From the NCBI RefSeq assembly GCF_003594935.2, contig NZ_CP043342.1, positions 3,472,001 through 3,536,000 of the forward strand: a DNA stretch of 64,000 nt, in the 5' to 3' direction. Shown piece after piece: positions 51,676 to 64,000 of the stretch. Every line of letters begins with the position of its first letter. The stretch's first letter is position 1. The notes beneath the pieces were generated by a model that ran no database searches, was not told the origin of the DNA, and saw only the letters and a program-made list of their open reading frames with translations. The DNA is from Enterobacter huaxiensis (GTDB lineage Bacteria; Pseudomonadota; Gammaproteobacteria; Enterobacterales; Enterobacteriaceae). Position numbers and translations under genes: made by a program.

Positions 51676-52242
51676 ATGATGAAAAAGCTACTCAGTGTTG
51701 CATTGGTATCCAGCGCTTTGCTCTTCTGTGCAGGCGCATCAGCGGCCATGACGTCTGGCTCCGTGATGGTGGGCGGAGCGGAAATGTTCCCGAGCAAAAA
51801 TATTGTTGAGAACGCCGTGAACTCGAAAGATCACACCACGCTGGTGGCGGCGGTCAAAGCGGCCGGGCTGGTGGATACGCTTCAGAGCAAAGGGCCCTTC
51901 ACCGTTTTTGCGCCAACCGATGCGGCGTTTGCAAAATTGCCTGCGGGTACGGTCGACAATCTGGTGAAGCCGGAAAATAAAGCCCTGCTCACCAGCATCC
52001 TGACCTATCACGTGGTCGCCGGTAATTACGATATGAAAGCGCTGGAGCAGAAAATTAAACAGGGCGGCGGCCACGCGGAGCTGAAAACCGTTAACGGTCA
52101 GCCTCTGTGGATCATGAGCAACGGCCCGCACAATATTCAGCTCAAAGATGGTAAAGGCAACGTGGCGAACATCAGCACCTATGACGTTCATCAAAAAAAT
52201 GGCGTGATCGACGTCATTGATACCGTCCTGATGCCTAAGTAG
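51676..52242 (+). CDS. Secreted fasciclin (FAS1) domain protein
   Basis: 188 residues with a signal peptide (MMKKLLSVALVSSALLFCAG, cleavage near ASA at residue 24; the Cys at 18 does not sit in a clear lipobox). One FAS1 domain follows: TTLVAAVKAAGLVDTLQSKG, then PFTVFAPTDAAFAKLP (H1 box, about 75-90), LLTSILTYHVVAG (about 107) and C-terminal GVIDVIDTVLMP (H2-like). FAS1 proteins mediate adhesion or matrix binding. GAGGATAA precedes the tandem ATGs. The ECF sigma gene follows by 43 bases. Confidence 0.9.
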   Translation: MMKKLLSVALVSSALLFCAGASAAMTSGSVMVGGAEMFPSKNIVENAVNSKDHTTLVAAVKAAGLVDTLQSKGPFTVFAPTDAAFAKLPAGTVDNLVKPENKALLTSILTYHVVAGNYDMKALEQKIKQGGGHAELKTVNGQPLWIMSNGPHNIQLKDGKGNVANISTYDVHQKNGVIDVIDTVLMPK

Positions 52243-52285
52243 TTGTCTATACTTCGGAAGTGTGAGGTTGCCTTCCGGGAAAAAC

Positions 52286-52840
52286 ATGGATAACGCGCTG
52301 GCTGAACAGCAGTTGAAATTAATGCAGGCGGTCGCAAACGGCGATCGCCGCGCATTTGAACAACTTTACCGACTCACTTCGCCTCACCTGTTTGCCGTCG
52401 CGCTGCGCATGCTGCGCCATCGCGCCTGGGCAGAAGAGATCCTTCACGACTGTTTTGTCACCGTCTGGAGTAAAGCCGAAACCTATAACGCCGCCCTGAG
52501 CTCCCCGATGACCTGGCTCACGCATATTGTTCGCAACCGCTGTATTGACTGGCTGCGCAGCGGGCAAACCCGGGCTGCCGCCCGTGAAGAGTCGTATTCC
52601 GAAGATATTCTGCTGAGCGAAAGCGATGAGCAGAATAACTGGCACGACGACGCTCAGGCAGCACGGCTCAGACATTGTCTGGAACATCTAAGTAACGAGC
52701 AGCGCCAGAGTATTACGCTCGCCTACTATCAGGGCATGTCCCACAGCGACATTGCCGACTGGCTCCAGCAGCCCGTGGGCTCGGTAAAAAGCTGGATCCG
52801 CCGGGCGATGGATCATCTTCGGGAGTGTGTGGGCCTATGA
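52286..52840 (+). CDS. ECF-type RNA polymerase sigma factor (SigK-like)
   Basis: 184 residues from the ATG at 52286 (CGGGA upstream; a GTG eight codons earlier is a weaker choice). Region 2 covers FEQLYRLTSPHLFAVALRML and WAEEILHDCFVTVWSKA with the core-binding acidic patch, and MTWLTHIVRNRCIDWLRSG for -10 recognition. Region 4 is LEHLSNEQRQSITLAYYQ and HSDIADWLQQPVGSVKSWIR, a helix-turn-helix for the -35. The stop overlaps the anti-sigma start (ATGA). Confidence 0.93.
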   Translation: MDNALAEQQLKLMQAVANGDRRAFEQLYRLTSPHLFAVALRMLRHRAWAEEILHDCFVTVWSKAETYNAALSSPMTWLTHIVRNRCIDWLRSGQTRAAAREESYSEDILLSESDEQNNWHDDAQAARLRHCLEHLSNEQRQSITLAYYQGMSHSDIADWLQQPVGSVKSWIRRAMDHLRECVGL

Positions 52841-53484
52841 ACGACGGCGATAAACGTGATGACATGCTGGCAGCAGAATATGCGCTCGGCACCCTGCGCG
52901 GCGGGGCGCGGCTTCAGTTCCAGAAAAGGCTTGCCGCTGAGCCCGGTCTGGCCGCCCGCGTGGCGTACTGGCAGGAAACGTTCAGCACGCTCGACAGCCA
53001 TCTCGCGCCCGTTACCCCACCCGAGACGGTGTGGAAGAGGATCGCCCTCGATCTGCCGGCGAAAAAGCCTTTGCGCCAAAACCGGCCTTATCTCGGCTGG
53101 ATGATTGCGGCCGGCATCGCCGCCGTTAGTGCGATAGCCTGGTATTCCACCCGCGTGCCGGAACTCGCACCGATGCTGGTGCTCAACGATGCCCAACAGC
53201 ACGGGCAGTGGATCGTCAGTGCGGACGCCCGCCGCCAGTATCTGAGCATAACCCCTCTCAGACCGAACGCTGTCGCGGCGCAAAATAGCCTGCAGCTTTG
53301 GCTGATGCCTGCCGGTGAGGCCCCGATATCCCTGGGCCTGCTGCATAACGCTGTACCGACGAGCGTTGTCCTGAAGCACGAAACCCTTACTCCTGACGCC
53401 ATAATAGCCATAAGCCTCGAGCCTGAGGGGGGATCGCCCACCGGCCAACCCACCGGCCCCGTGCTCTACAGTGGAAAAATTTAA
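52837..53484 (+). CDS. Anti-sigma factor, RskA/anti-sigma-K type
   Basis: 215 residues. The N-terminal cytoplasmic part (about 1-90) has the zinc-less anti-sigma pattern LAAEYALGTLRGGARLQFQKR; one membrane segment, YLGWMIAAGIAAVSAIAWYS, is at about 88-107; the rest is a periplasmic anti-sigma-K domain with SLQLWLMPAGEAPISLGLL (about 153) and a Gly/Pro-rich C-terminus. It probably holds the ECF factor at the membrane until cleaved on an envelope signal. Coupled by a four-base overlap to the sigma gene. Confidence 0.9.
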   Translation: MNDGDKRDDMLAAEYALGTLRGGARLQFQKRLAAEPGLAARVAYWQETFSTLDSHLAPVTPPETVWKRIALDLPAKKPLRQNRPYLGWMIAAGIAAVSAIAWYSTRVPELAPMLVLNDAQQHGQWIVSADARRQYLSITPLRPNAVAAQNSLQLWLMPAGEAPISLGLLHNAVPTSVVLKHETLTPDAIIAISLEPEGGSPTGQPTGPVLYSGKI

Positions 53485-53508: not shown

Positions 53509-53646
53509 GCGAGCGTCTTAATAAACCTTTCGCCACGATACGAAAAGAGAGCGTTTTCAAAGCTAAACCTTATTTCTATAATATTCACTTTTACATATAA
53601 GAATTAAATATTAGCACGCCAATGAATTTAATTATTTAAAACGTTA

Positions 53647-53676
53647 TTGACACTCTCTCCTGAACTCTATTAAGTT
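53647..53676 (+). promoter_or_regulatory. Candidate sigma-70 promoter of the SDR-ThDP operon
   Basis: A perfect -35 TTGACA at 53647, with TATTAA (15-bp spacing) or TAAGTT (18-bp spacing) as -10. It lies in the AT-rich 315-base gap 53485-53799, which otherwise holds the anti-sigma hairpin and a leader inverted repeat. The predicted leader is about 115 nt long. Confidence 0.45.
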
Positions 53677-53719
53677 TAATCGAATGCCATCCCATTCAAT
53701 ATATACAATATATCGTTCT

Positions 53720-53755
53720 AAGGATTAAAGAATTTGTCATTATTCTTTAATCCTT
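53720..53755 (+). promoter_or_regulatory. 14-bp perfect inverted repeat in the leader of the SDR-ThDP operon
   Basis: AAGGATTAAAGAAT and ATTCTTTAATCCTT with an 8-base loop, ending 44 bases before the SDR ATG. The following TCCTGCCTTTTATTTTTTG is T-rich but has a six-base gap first. It may be a transcription attenuator, a regulator operator or an RNA stabiliser. Such a long exact match is unlikely by chance even in AT-rich DNA. Confidence 0.6.
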
Positions 53756-53799: not shown

Positions 53800-54540
53800 A
53801 TGAATAATAGTGCAAACAAGATTATCGTTATCACCGGCGCCAGCAGCGGCATCGGCGAGGCTATTGCTCTTTATTTAGCGGATAAGGCGTTTTCGCTGGT
53901 CCTGGTAGCGCGCCGCCTCGAGAGGATTAACGCCCTGGTGGATCGGATCATTCAGCAGGGAGGACAGGCGATTGCCGTTAAGGCCGACGTCACGCGGCAG
54001 GAGGAGGTGCAAAAGGCCATCGATGCTGCCGTCGCGGCATACCAGCGCGTCGACGTGCTGATAAATAACGCCGGTTTTATGGCTATCGCCCCCCTCAGCG
54101 AGCTAAAAACCGACGAGTGGGACCGGATGATTGATACCAACCTGAAGGGCGTACTGTACGGTATCGCCGCGGCATTCCCGGTATTCCAGCGCCAGGGAAG
54201 CGGCCACATTATCAACGTGGCATCTGTGGCGGGTATCAAAGTGCTTGCCCCCGGCGGCGTGGTGTATAGCGCCACGAAATTCGCGGTTCGCGCCCTGAGC
54301 GAAGGCCTTCGCCAGGAGGCAGGCAGGACCATCCGAACCACCCTTATTTCTCCGGGCGCGGTCGAAAGCGAGCTGCAGTTCGGCAGCTCTGATGCCCCGA
54401 GCAAACAGTTCCTGCATGAATTTTATAAGCAGGCCATACCGGCAGACGCGATTGCCCGCGCCGTTTTATTTGCTATTGAACAACCCAACGACGTTGATGT
54501 GAATGAAATTATTGTCCGACCGACGCAGGAAGAATTTTAG
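53800..54540 (+). CDS. Short-chain dehydrogenase/reductase, first gene of SDR-ThDP operon
   Basis: 246-residue classical SDR. Cofactor motif [13 protein letters not shown] (residues 13-25), an RR pair at about 40 that favours [15 protein letters not shown] (about 92), Ser in NVASVAG (about 143), catalytic [18 protein letters not shown] (about 156) and a C-terminal [14 protein letters not shown]. It resembles the YdfG/clavaldehyde-type group that acts on small hydroxy acids and aldehydes. The ThDP enzyme gene starts 33 bases after its stop, so it may reduce that enzyme's aldehyde or acyloin product. Substrate unknown. Confidence 0.88.
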
Positions 54541-54573
54541 CATGACTTAATTAATACTGAATGAGGTGTCATT

Positions 54574-56268
54574 ATGATTAAATCATTAACGTCCTTATCA
54601 GATTTAAATATGCGCTCAGGTGCCGATATTCTCCTCAACGTGCTGGAGAGTGAAGGCGTGGAATATATATTTGGCAACCCCGGCACGACGGAACTCCCGC
54701 TGATTGACGCCCTGCTCCGGCATGAAAACATTCACTATATTCTGGCACTCCAGGAGAGCAGCGTGGTTGCCATTGCCGACGGCTATGCGAAAGCCTCCGG
54801 TAAGACCGGTTTTATCAATTTACATACCGCCAGCGGCCTCGGTCACGGCATGGGGAATTTAATCAACTCGCGGATCATGAAAACGCCGCTGGTTGTGACC
54901 GTCGGGCAGCAGGACACCCGGCACTACGTGCGCGATCCGCTTCTGTATGACGACATTGTTTCCATTGGCTCGCCGGTGGTGAAGTGGGCGCAGGAGGTCA
55001 CCAGCGCCGATCAGCTCCCGGTTCTGGTGCGCCGCGCCTTTCATGCTGCCAGCTACCCTCCCGCGGGCCCGGTGCTGCTCTCTCTGCCGATGAACGTGAT
55101 GGAGGAGCTCAGCGACGCCGGGATACAAACGGCCTCTAAGGTGAACTACCACACCGTGGCGGGCTCGCTGGACGAACTGGCGGAGGAGCTGAGCCAGGTT
55201 ACGCCCGGCAGGATCATGATCGTGGCGGGGGATGAAGTACACTCCAGCGGCTCAACGCAGGAGATAGTCCAGCTTGCGGAAGCGCTCGGCGCCCACGTCT
55301 ACGGCTCCTCCTGGCCGTTAAATCTGCCCTTTCCCACACAGCACGCGCTCTGGCGCGGCAATATGCCCACCACCGCCTGCGAAATCGCCGGCATCGTCAA
55401 TGGCTACGACGCGGTGTTTATCATCGGCGGCAGAAGCCTGATCACCATTCTTTACAGCGAAGGGGACGCAATCCCGGGTTCTTGCGCGGTATACCAGCTC
55501 TCCGCCGACATGAACGAGCTGGGCCGCACCTACGCGACGCGCCTCTCGGTAATGGGGGATATCAAACTCTCCCTGAAAGAACTGTTACCGAAGCTTGAGC
55601 AGCGCCGGGTGGCAAGCAAATTAACGCATCAGCGGCTGCTCAAAGCGGCGCGCGCCGAACGGGAAAAAGAGTGGCAGGAGCAGGAAAAGCGGCTGGCTGC
55701 CGAGCGGCTGCGCCCGGCGATTTCGCCGATGGTCGCGGCATACGAGGTGATTAAATCCGTTCCGCCGGGCACCACGATTGTTGACGAGGCGATTGCAACG
55801 GCAAGGCACGTTCGCCGGGTGATCTCGGACCAGCAGCACCTGCGCTACTACTTTATGCGCGGCGGCGGGCTGGGCTGGGGTATGCCTGCGGCAGTCGGCC
55901 ACTCGCTGGGGCTGGGCCGCGAGCCGGTAGTGTGCCTGATGGGCGACGGCGCGTCCCTTTACTCACCGCAGGCGCTCTGGACGGCGGCACACGAAGAGCT
56001 GCCCGTGACCTTTATCGTCATGAATAACCTGGAGTACAACGTTCTCAAAAACTTTATGAAGAGCCAGCCCGCCTACAGTTCGACGAAGCTGGGGCGCTTT
56101 ATCGGAATGGATTTGGTTGACCCGCACATCGATTTTCAGTCGCTCGCCACCGCCATGGGCATTCGCTGCTGTCGGGTCACCCAGGCGGCGGACATCGCCG
56201 CCGCGGTAACTCAGGGGCTGCAGTCCGGCAAAACCAACTTAATTGAAATCGTGATTTCGGCAGATTAA
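54574..56268 (+). CDS. ThDP-dependent enzyme, benzoylformate-decarboxylase-like
   Basis: 564 residues. N-terminal Pyr domain: VEYIFGNPGTTELPLIDALL (about 28-47), activating Glu in LALQESSVVAIADGYAKAS (about 68) and FINLHTASGLGHGMGNL (about 92). The C-terminal PP domain has the ThDP motif MGDGASLYS...FIVMNN (about 457-485). Overall layout follows P. putida benzoylformate decarboxylase. Of its catalytic residues, His70 appears kept (NLH), but Ser26 is Thr (NPGTT) and His281 falls on a hydrophobic residue (GGRSLITILYS). A Glu/Arg-rich insert lies near 355-380. Likely a 2-oxoacid decarboxylase or carboligase of altered specificity. Confidence 0.85.
   Translation: MIKSLTSLSDLNMRSGADILLNVLESEGVEYIFGNPGTTELPLIDALLRHENIHYILALQESSVVAIADGYAKASGKTGFINLHTASGLGHGMGNLINSRIMKTPLVVTVGQQDTRHYVRDPLLYDDIVSIGSPVVKWAQEVTSADQLPVLVRRAFHAASYPPAGPVLLSLPMNVMEELSDAGIQTASKVNYHTVAGSLDELAEELSQVTPGRIMIVAGDEVHSSGSTQEIVQLAEALGAHVYGSSWPLNLPFPTQHALWRGNMPTTACEIAGIVNGYDAVFIIGGRSLITILYSEGDAIPGSCAVYQLSADMNELGRTYATRLSVMGDIKLSLKELLPKLEQRRVASKLTHQRLLKAARAEREKEWQEQEKRLAAERLRPAISPMVAAYEVIKSVPPGTTIVDEAIATARHVRRVISDQQHLRYYFMRGGGLGWGMPAAVGHSLGLGREPVVCLMGDGASLYSPQALWTAAHEELPVTFIVMNNLEYNVLKNFMKSQPAYSSTKLGRFIGMDLVDPHIDFQSLATAMGIRCCRVTQAADIAAAVTQGLQSGKTNLIEIVISAD

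Positions 56269-62992: not shown

Positions 62993-64000
<1,008 letters not shown>

Follow-up and report, generated by a model that had tools for sequence, protein, structure and literature searches.

Pairing a ThDP-dependent enzyme with a reductase is a common metabolic logic, seen in the Ehrlich pathway, where a decarboxylase works with an alcohol dehydrogenase, in BudB with BudC, and in glyoxylate carboligase with tartronate semialdehyde reductase. Among ThDP enzymes of the benzoylformate decarboxylase (BFD) type, engineered variants changed at positions Thr377, Ala460 and His281 gain activity on small 2-oxo acids or favour them. The locus described here encodes such an enzyme next to a reductase, and the sequence-only reading of it held that no named pathway contains this pair. 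This was wrong, given the Ehrlich combination of a 2-ketoacid decarboxylase with an alcohol dehydrogenase and the BudB–BudC pair, which is encoded about 7 kb away. In the light of these precedents, the pair is a real, conserved and uncharacterised operon of a familiar pathway type, and its most interesting part is the ThDP subfamily, the type of chemistry itself being well known.

The gene pair and its distribution

In the 64,000-nucleotide stretch of Enterobacter huaxiensis DNA that was analysed (the window), an SDR oxidoreductase gene (53800–54540, + strand, 246 aa; Pfam adh_short, 5e-54) is followed by a gene for a ThDP-dependent enzyme with the BFD fold, belonging to an uncharacterised subfamily (54574–56268, + strand, 564 aa; Pfam TPP_enzyme N, M and C). 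The SDR stop codon and the ThDP ATG are 33 nt apart, and a GAGG at 54563–54566 (+) within this spacer is the likely ribosome-binding site of the second gene. Purifying selection acts on the SDR and the ThDP gene alike (dN/dS 0.03–0.085 among the Enterobacter orthologues), which marks the two frames as genes rather than chance ORFs.

Among 61 Enterobacter genomes, the SDR was found in 14 and the ThDP gene in the same 14, neither being present in the other 47 (Fisher p 4e-14, uncorrected for phylogeny). Counted with the stop codon, the spacer between them is 36 nt in 13 of the 14 genomes and 39 nt in the divergent RIT714. The early description of a linked operon of adjacent BFD-like and SDR genes thus held, down to the exact frames. 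The pair is an insert that is either present or absent, flanked by betA/anti-sigma and a GNAT gene, and several genomes show an empty site with betA directly beside the GNAT gene; gain and loss therefore affect both genes at once. Together, these observations make a strong case for a functional linkage that goes beyond mere adjacency, and the genes probably form a two-enzyme module on one transcript. A pair 74–76% identical to it occurs at other locations, namely in the RIT714 genome and on Drgb3, a conjugative Pectobacterium plasmid from cabbage-root-fly larvae. The SDR partner is confined to the Enterobacterales members, and no match to the locus was found in the E. coli genomes searched.

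Upstream of the pair, the window carries a module of a fasciclin-domain protein, an ECF sigma factor and an RskA-type anti-sigma factor (51676–53484). Its presence varies, and in several species the SDR directly adjoins betA. A genomic island defined by GC content was also considered and dropped, as the composition of the genes, mostly near 0.6, is not clearly foreign.

The leader region

The pair had been credited with a promoter region of its own, and the comparison of orthologues bears this out. The 315-nt intergenic region 5′ of the SDR is clearly AT-rich (GC 0.42 versus about 0.6) and contains a candidate promoter, TTGACA-17-TTAAGT (53647–53675, +), proposed on consensus and conservation; its TTGACA −35 hexamer is kept across the aligned Enterobacter orthologues, along with several leader blocks. 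The block TATATACAATATA (53700–53712, +), conserved across species, includes a possible second −10 element (TACAAT). A scanning tool suggested another promoter at 53554–53582, which was discarded for want of conservation between species.

Further downstream lies an inverted repeat, GGATTAAAGAAT-(8)-ATTCTTTAATCC (53722–53753, +), whose arms covary. Counted over 10 distinct genomes with duplicates left out, 5 of its 12 pairs have changed on both sides with pairing retained. None of 500 shuffles reached this covariation score, and the signal was lost when the partner arm was slid by 1–3 columns. The window repeat folds at −15.7 kcal/mol (z −5.8); an Rfam search of the leader and repeat gave no match. 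Either a leader RNA hairpin or an operator bound by a dimer would fit the element, and the G-U pairs seen in one genome (G020) favour the hairpin, if only slightly. Allowing up to 3 mismatches, the repeat is single-copy in the genome, so that no regulon can be read from it.

The ThDP-dependent enzyme

The ThDP enzyme carries the GDG...NN signature, and its AlphaFold model (pLDDT 91.4) has as its best Foldseek/PDB matches exclusively BFD-type decarboxylases or engineered BFD, among them BFD itself and the 4-hydroxybenzoylformate decarboxylases 7orx and 6qsi. Its identity to BFD-type structures is about 28%, and its score against the BFD equivalog model NF005485 is 391 bits, where the curated threshold is 493. 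A tree of 48 sequences places it beside a Pantoea dispersa protein (99/94) inside a 23-member clade drawn from Acetobacteraceae, Methylobacteriaceae, Rhizobiales, Burkholderiales, Thermodesulfobacteriota and others, apart from mdlC; it likewise belongs to a separate 32-row clade (100/99) that does not include the mdlC sequences, and the placements of IPDC, BudB and one further sequence (L022) in this tree are unreliable because of long branches. The supported assignment, made on sequence comparison, is of a BFD-like enzyme that would not be BFD and that belongs to a separate clade. No characterised member of this clade was found in open-licence PMC text, and nothing on the SDR–ThDP pair was found there either. 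One ThDP gene grouping with Bradyrhizobium-type sequences comes from a MAG contig labelled Klebsiella pneumoniae, a label that is probably wrong.

On alignment with BFD, Ser26 corresponds to Thr38, Glu47 to Glu61, His70 to His84 and His281 to Ile292. The activating glutamate and the His70-type residue are thus kept, and Ser26 and His281 are replaced by threonine and a hydrophobic residue, all as first noticed. The conclusion that had been drawn from these two replacements, i.e., a chemistry other than that of BFD, is unsound. The kcat of P. putida BFD drops by a factor of about 2.5 with Ser26→Leu and of about 5 with His281→Phe (PMC6028569), and variants with His281→Tyr/Thr/Ala or Ser26→Thr have been crystallised (PDB titles); as BFD tolerates replacement at both positions, Thr38 and Ile292 alone do not predict new chemistry. 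Two other differences more plausibly alter the size of the substrate accepted: Thr377 and Ala460 of BFD are aligned with the bulkier Ile407 and Val490, and engineered forms of BFD such as 4mzx and 4mpp carry mutations at these two positions; His281 is a further site changed in engineered BFD (PDB titles).

The residues noted in the window enzyme also include Glu40, Arg429, Glu487 and Asn489, and those common to the clade are Thr38, Glu40, Glu61, His84, His117, Ile/Val292, Arg429, Glu487, Asn489 and Phe494. The clade-conserved Arg429, His117 and Glu487 could point to a polar or second-acid substrate, or to an acceptor for carboligation. The mined 2-ketoacid decarboxylase GEO 175 was considered as a relative and set aside; at about 50% identity to P. 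putida BFD (PMC4673503) it belongs to a different clade.

The SDR

The partner is a classical SDR, with the catalytic tetrad Asn114-Ser142-Tyr156-Lys160 intact and the TGxxxGxG, NNAG and Asn-Ser-Tyr-Lys motifs invariant in 14 homologues. Arg38-Arg39, following the second strand (β2), is likewise invariant in the 14, and this motif predicts the use of NADP(H). Among its relatives with known structures are two enzymes that act on aldehydes, clavaldehyde dehydrogenase and sulfoacetaldehyde reductase. Against the models for the acetoin reductase BudC it remains below both cut-offs (TIGR02415, 139 bits versus 304; NF052558, 134 versus 270), and BudC is distant in the SDR tree, on a very long branch.

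Gene neighbourhoods of relatives

In RIT714, the pair has just upstream of it an acyltransferase with the condensation/PapA/AATase fold, whose HHSIADG motif is intact, and on Drgb3 a truncated copy of this acyltransferase precedes it, which suggests ester formation there. Drgb3 carries two SDR–ThDP units in all (L024, 8542–12202 and 14666–17900). The unit homologous to that of the window has, besides the truncated acyltransferase, a frameshifted ThDP gene. In the other, an SDR 61% identical to the window SDR adjoins an indolepyruvate decarboxylase (IPDC)-type ThDP enzyme and an O-methyltransferase; in the SDR tree this IPDC partner is not clearly nearer than the orphan plasmid SDRs, and the clue from its context is accordingly weak. 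An IPDC relative on a Serratia plasmid was examined as a parallel pair and rejected, its neighbours being an aldo-keto reductase (mgrA) and a LysR gene rather than this SDR.

Beside relatives of the ThDP enzyme, Lrp/AsnC regulators were found in three lineages (Rhizobium, Herbaspirillum and Sodalis), and the Rhizobium gene is followed by one for a Glu/Leu/Phe/Val dehydrogenase. These neighbours point to 2-oxo acids derived from amino acids. In Acetobacter (L048, 5856–13451), alsD and alsS are followed by the BFD-type relative and then by lutABC-like lactate oxidation genes, a setting that acetoin chemistry would fit as well. On plasmids of Klebsiella, Pantoea, Enterobacter and Acinetobacter (L161–L164), an SDR 65–67% identical to that of the window forms a LysR–SDR unit beside two Zn-dependent alcohol dehydrogenases.

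Proposed function

The reading favoured here, with about even confidence, is that the pair is an Ehrlich-type module consisting of a 2-oxo-acid decarboxylase and an NADPH-dependent aldehyde reductase. Linked genes of the decarboxylase and reductase types are present, and in the roles proposed for them the ThDP enzyme would form an aldehyde by decarboxylating a 2-oxo acid (probably an aliphatic one rather than benzoylformate), and the SDR would then reduce this aldehyde with NADPH to an alcohol. In RIT714 and Drgb3, esterification of the alcohol may follow, or may have done so in the past. Decarboxylation is suggested by the aldehyde-acting SDR relatives, the Lrp and dehydrogenase neighbours and the IPDC unit of Drgb3, none of which fixes the substrate. 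Points that weigh against this reading are the restriction of the SDR partner to Enterobacterales members, its absence beside the 55–60% identical ThDP relatives, the clade-conserved Arg429, His117 and Glu487, and the Acetobacter cluster.

The main rival, possible yet doubtful, is an acyloin-forming carboligase with a ketone reductase: an activated aldehyde derived from a 2-oxo acid would be joined to a second carbonyl compound, and reduction of the resulting 2-hydroxy ketone would yield a vicinal diol, much as BudB–BudA–BudC produce 2,3-butanediol. BFD-type enzymes are natural carboligases, acetoin-reductase-type SDRs are moderate relatives of the window SDR (TIGR02415, as above), and budC (62993–63787, − strand) lies 6.7 kb beyond the pair, with budB next to it and running past the window end (64000); the chief support, however, comes from the Acetobacter relatives beside alsD and alsS. 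The same nearby budB and budC also count against this rival, as Enterobacter already has these genes, while the SDR is far from BudC and the Lrp and amino-acid dehydrogenase neighbours suit decarboxylation better. A more elaborate and rather unlikely reading joins the acyltransferase to the two enzymes in a cluster for a dedicated ester or hydroxy-ketone metabolite (a volatile or signal) under control of the leader hairpin, with Thr38, Ile292, Arg429 and Glu487 marking a new specificity in the BFD branch; such a cluster would be whole in RIT714, decayed on Drgb3 and reduced to the SDR and ThDP genes in Enterobacter.

A conventional role as benzoylformate or 4-hydroxybenzoylformate decarboxylase for aryl-C2 acids from plants or lignin, with the SDR detoxifying the aromatic aldehyde, would agree with the best PDB matches and with the tolerance of BFD for Ser26 and His281 substitutions. 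It is judged improbable in view of the low identity and sub-threshold NCBIfam score, the clade apart from mdlC and the larger side chains in place of Thr377 and Ala460; moreover, on a Variovorax plasmid the gene that comes after the annotated mdlC encodes an aldehyde dehydrogenase instead of a reductase. Very unlikely is the absence of any common pathway, i.e., a chance association of the two genes on a single insert, the SDR being a general scavenger of aldehydes and ketones. Plasmids of Acinetobacter, Klebsiella and Enterobacter do carry close SDR relatives that lack a ThDP enzyme and have LysR and Zn-ADH genes as neighbours, and no ThDP gene was found close to the SDR in ten further genomes of the order. 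Against this stand the perfect co-occurrence and constant spacing in 14 genomes and the retention of the same pair at a second locus and on a plasmid.

If, as favoured here, the module releases an alcohol, or if it releases an ester or hydroxy ketone, it would account for a volatile or secondary-metabolite trait that varies within Enterobacter and provide a new biocatalyst. The ThDP subfamily reaches from Alpha-, Beta- and Gammaproteobacteria to Thermodesulfobacteriota, and Enterobacter offers a natural reductase partner with which its reaction can be tested in one pot.

Comparison with known systems

The closest relatives of the ThDP enzyme in other bacteria, the BFD-type proteins of Acetobacter, Komagataeibacter, Methylobacterium, Rhizobium and Pantoea dispersa (55–60% identity), share its active-site signature, but have no adjoining SDR of this clade and are annotated, where at all, as “thiamine pyrophosphate-binding protein”. 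With MdlC/BFD of P. putida (1bfd), 7orx and 6qsi, it shares the fold, the three-domain ThDP architecture and the equivalents of Glu47, His70 and Glu28. It differs from BFD in being only 28–29% identical, in the four replacements (Ser26→Thr, His281→Ile, Thr377→Ile and Ala460→Val), in falling below the equivalog cut-off and in being paired with a reductase. The bud operon likewise combines a ThDP enzyme, the acetolactate synthase BudB, with an SDR, the acetoin reductase BudC, but both window proteins are only distantly related to these and the pair lacks an acetolactate decarboxylase partner. The Ehrlich combination of IPDC or another 2-ketoacid decarboxylase with an alcohol dehydrogenase follows the logic proposed here, decarboxylation and then reduction with NAD(P)H, whereas the window ThDP enzyme is of the BFD type and not of the PDC/IPDC type.
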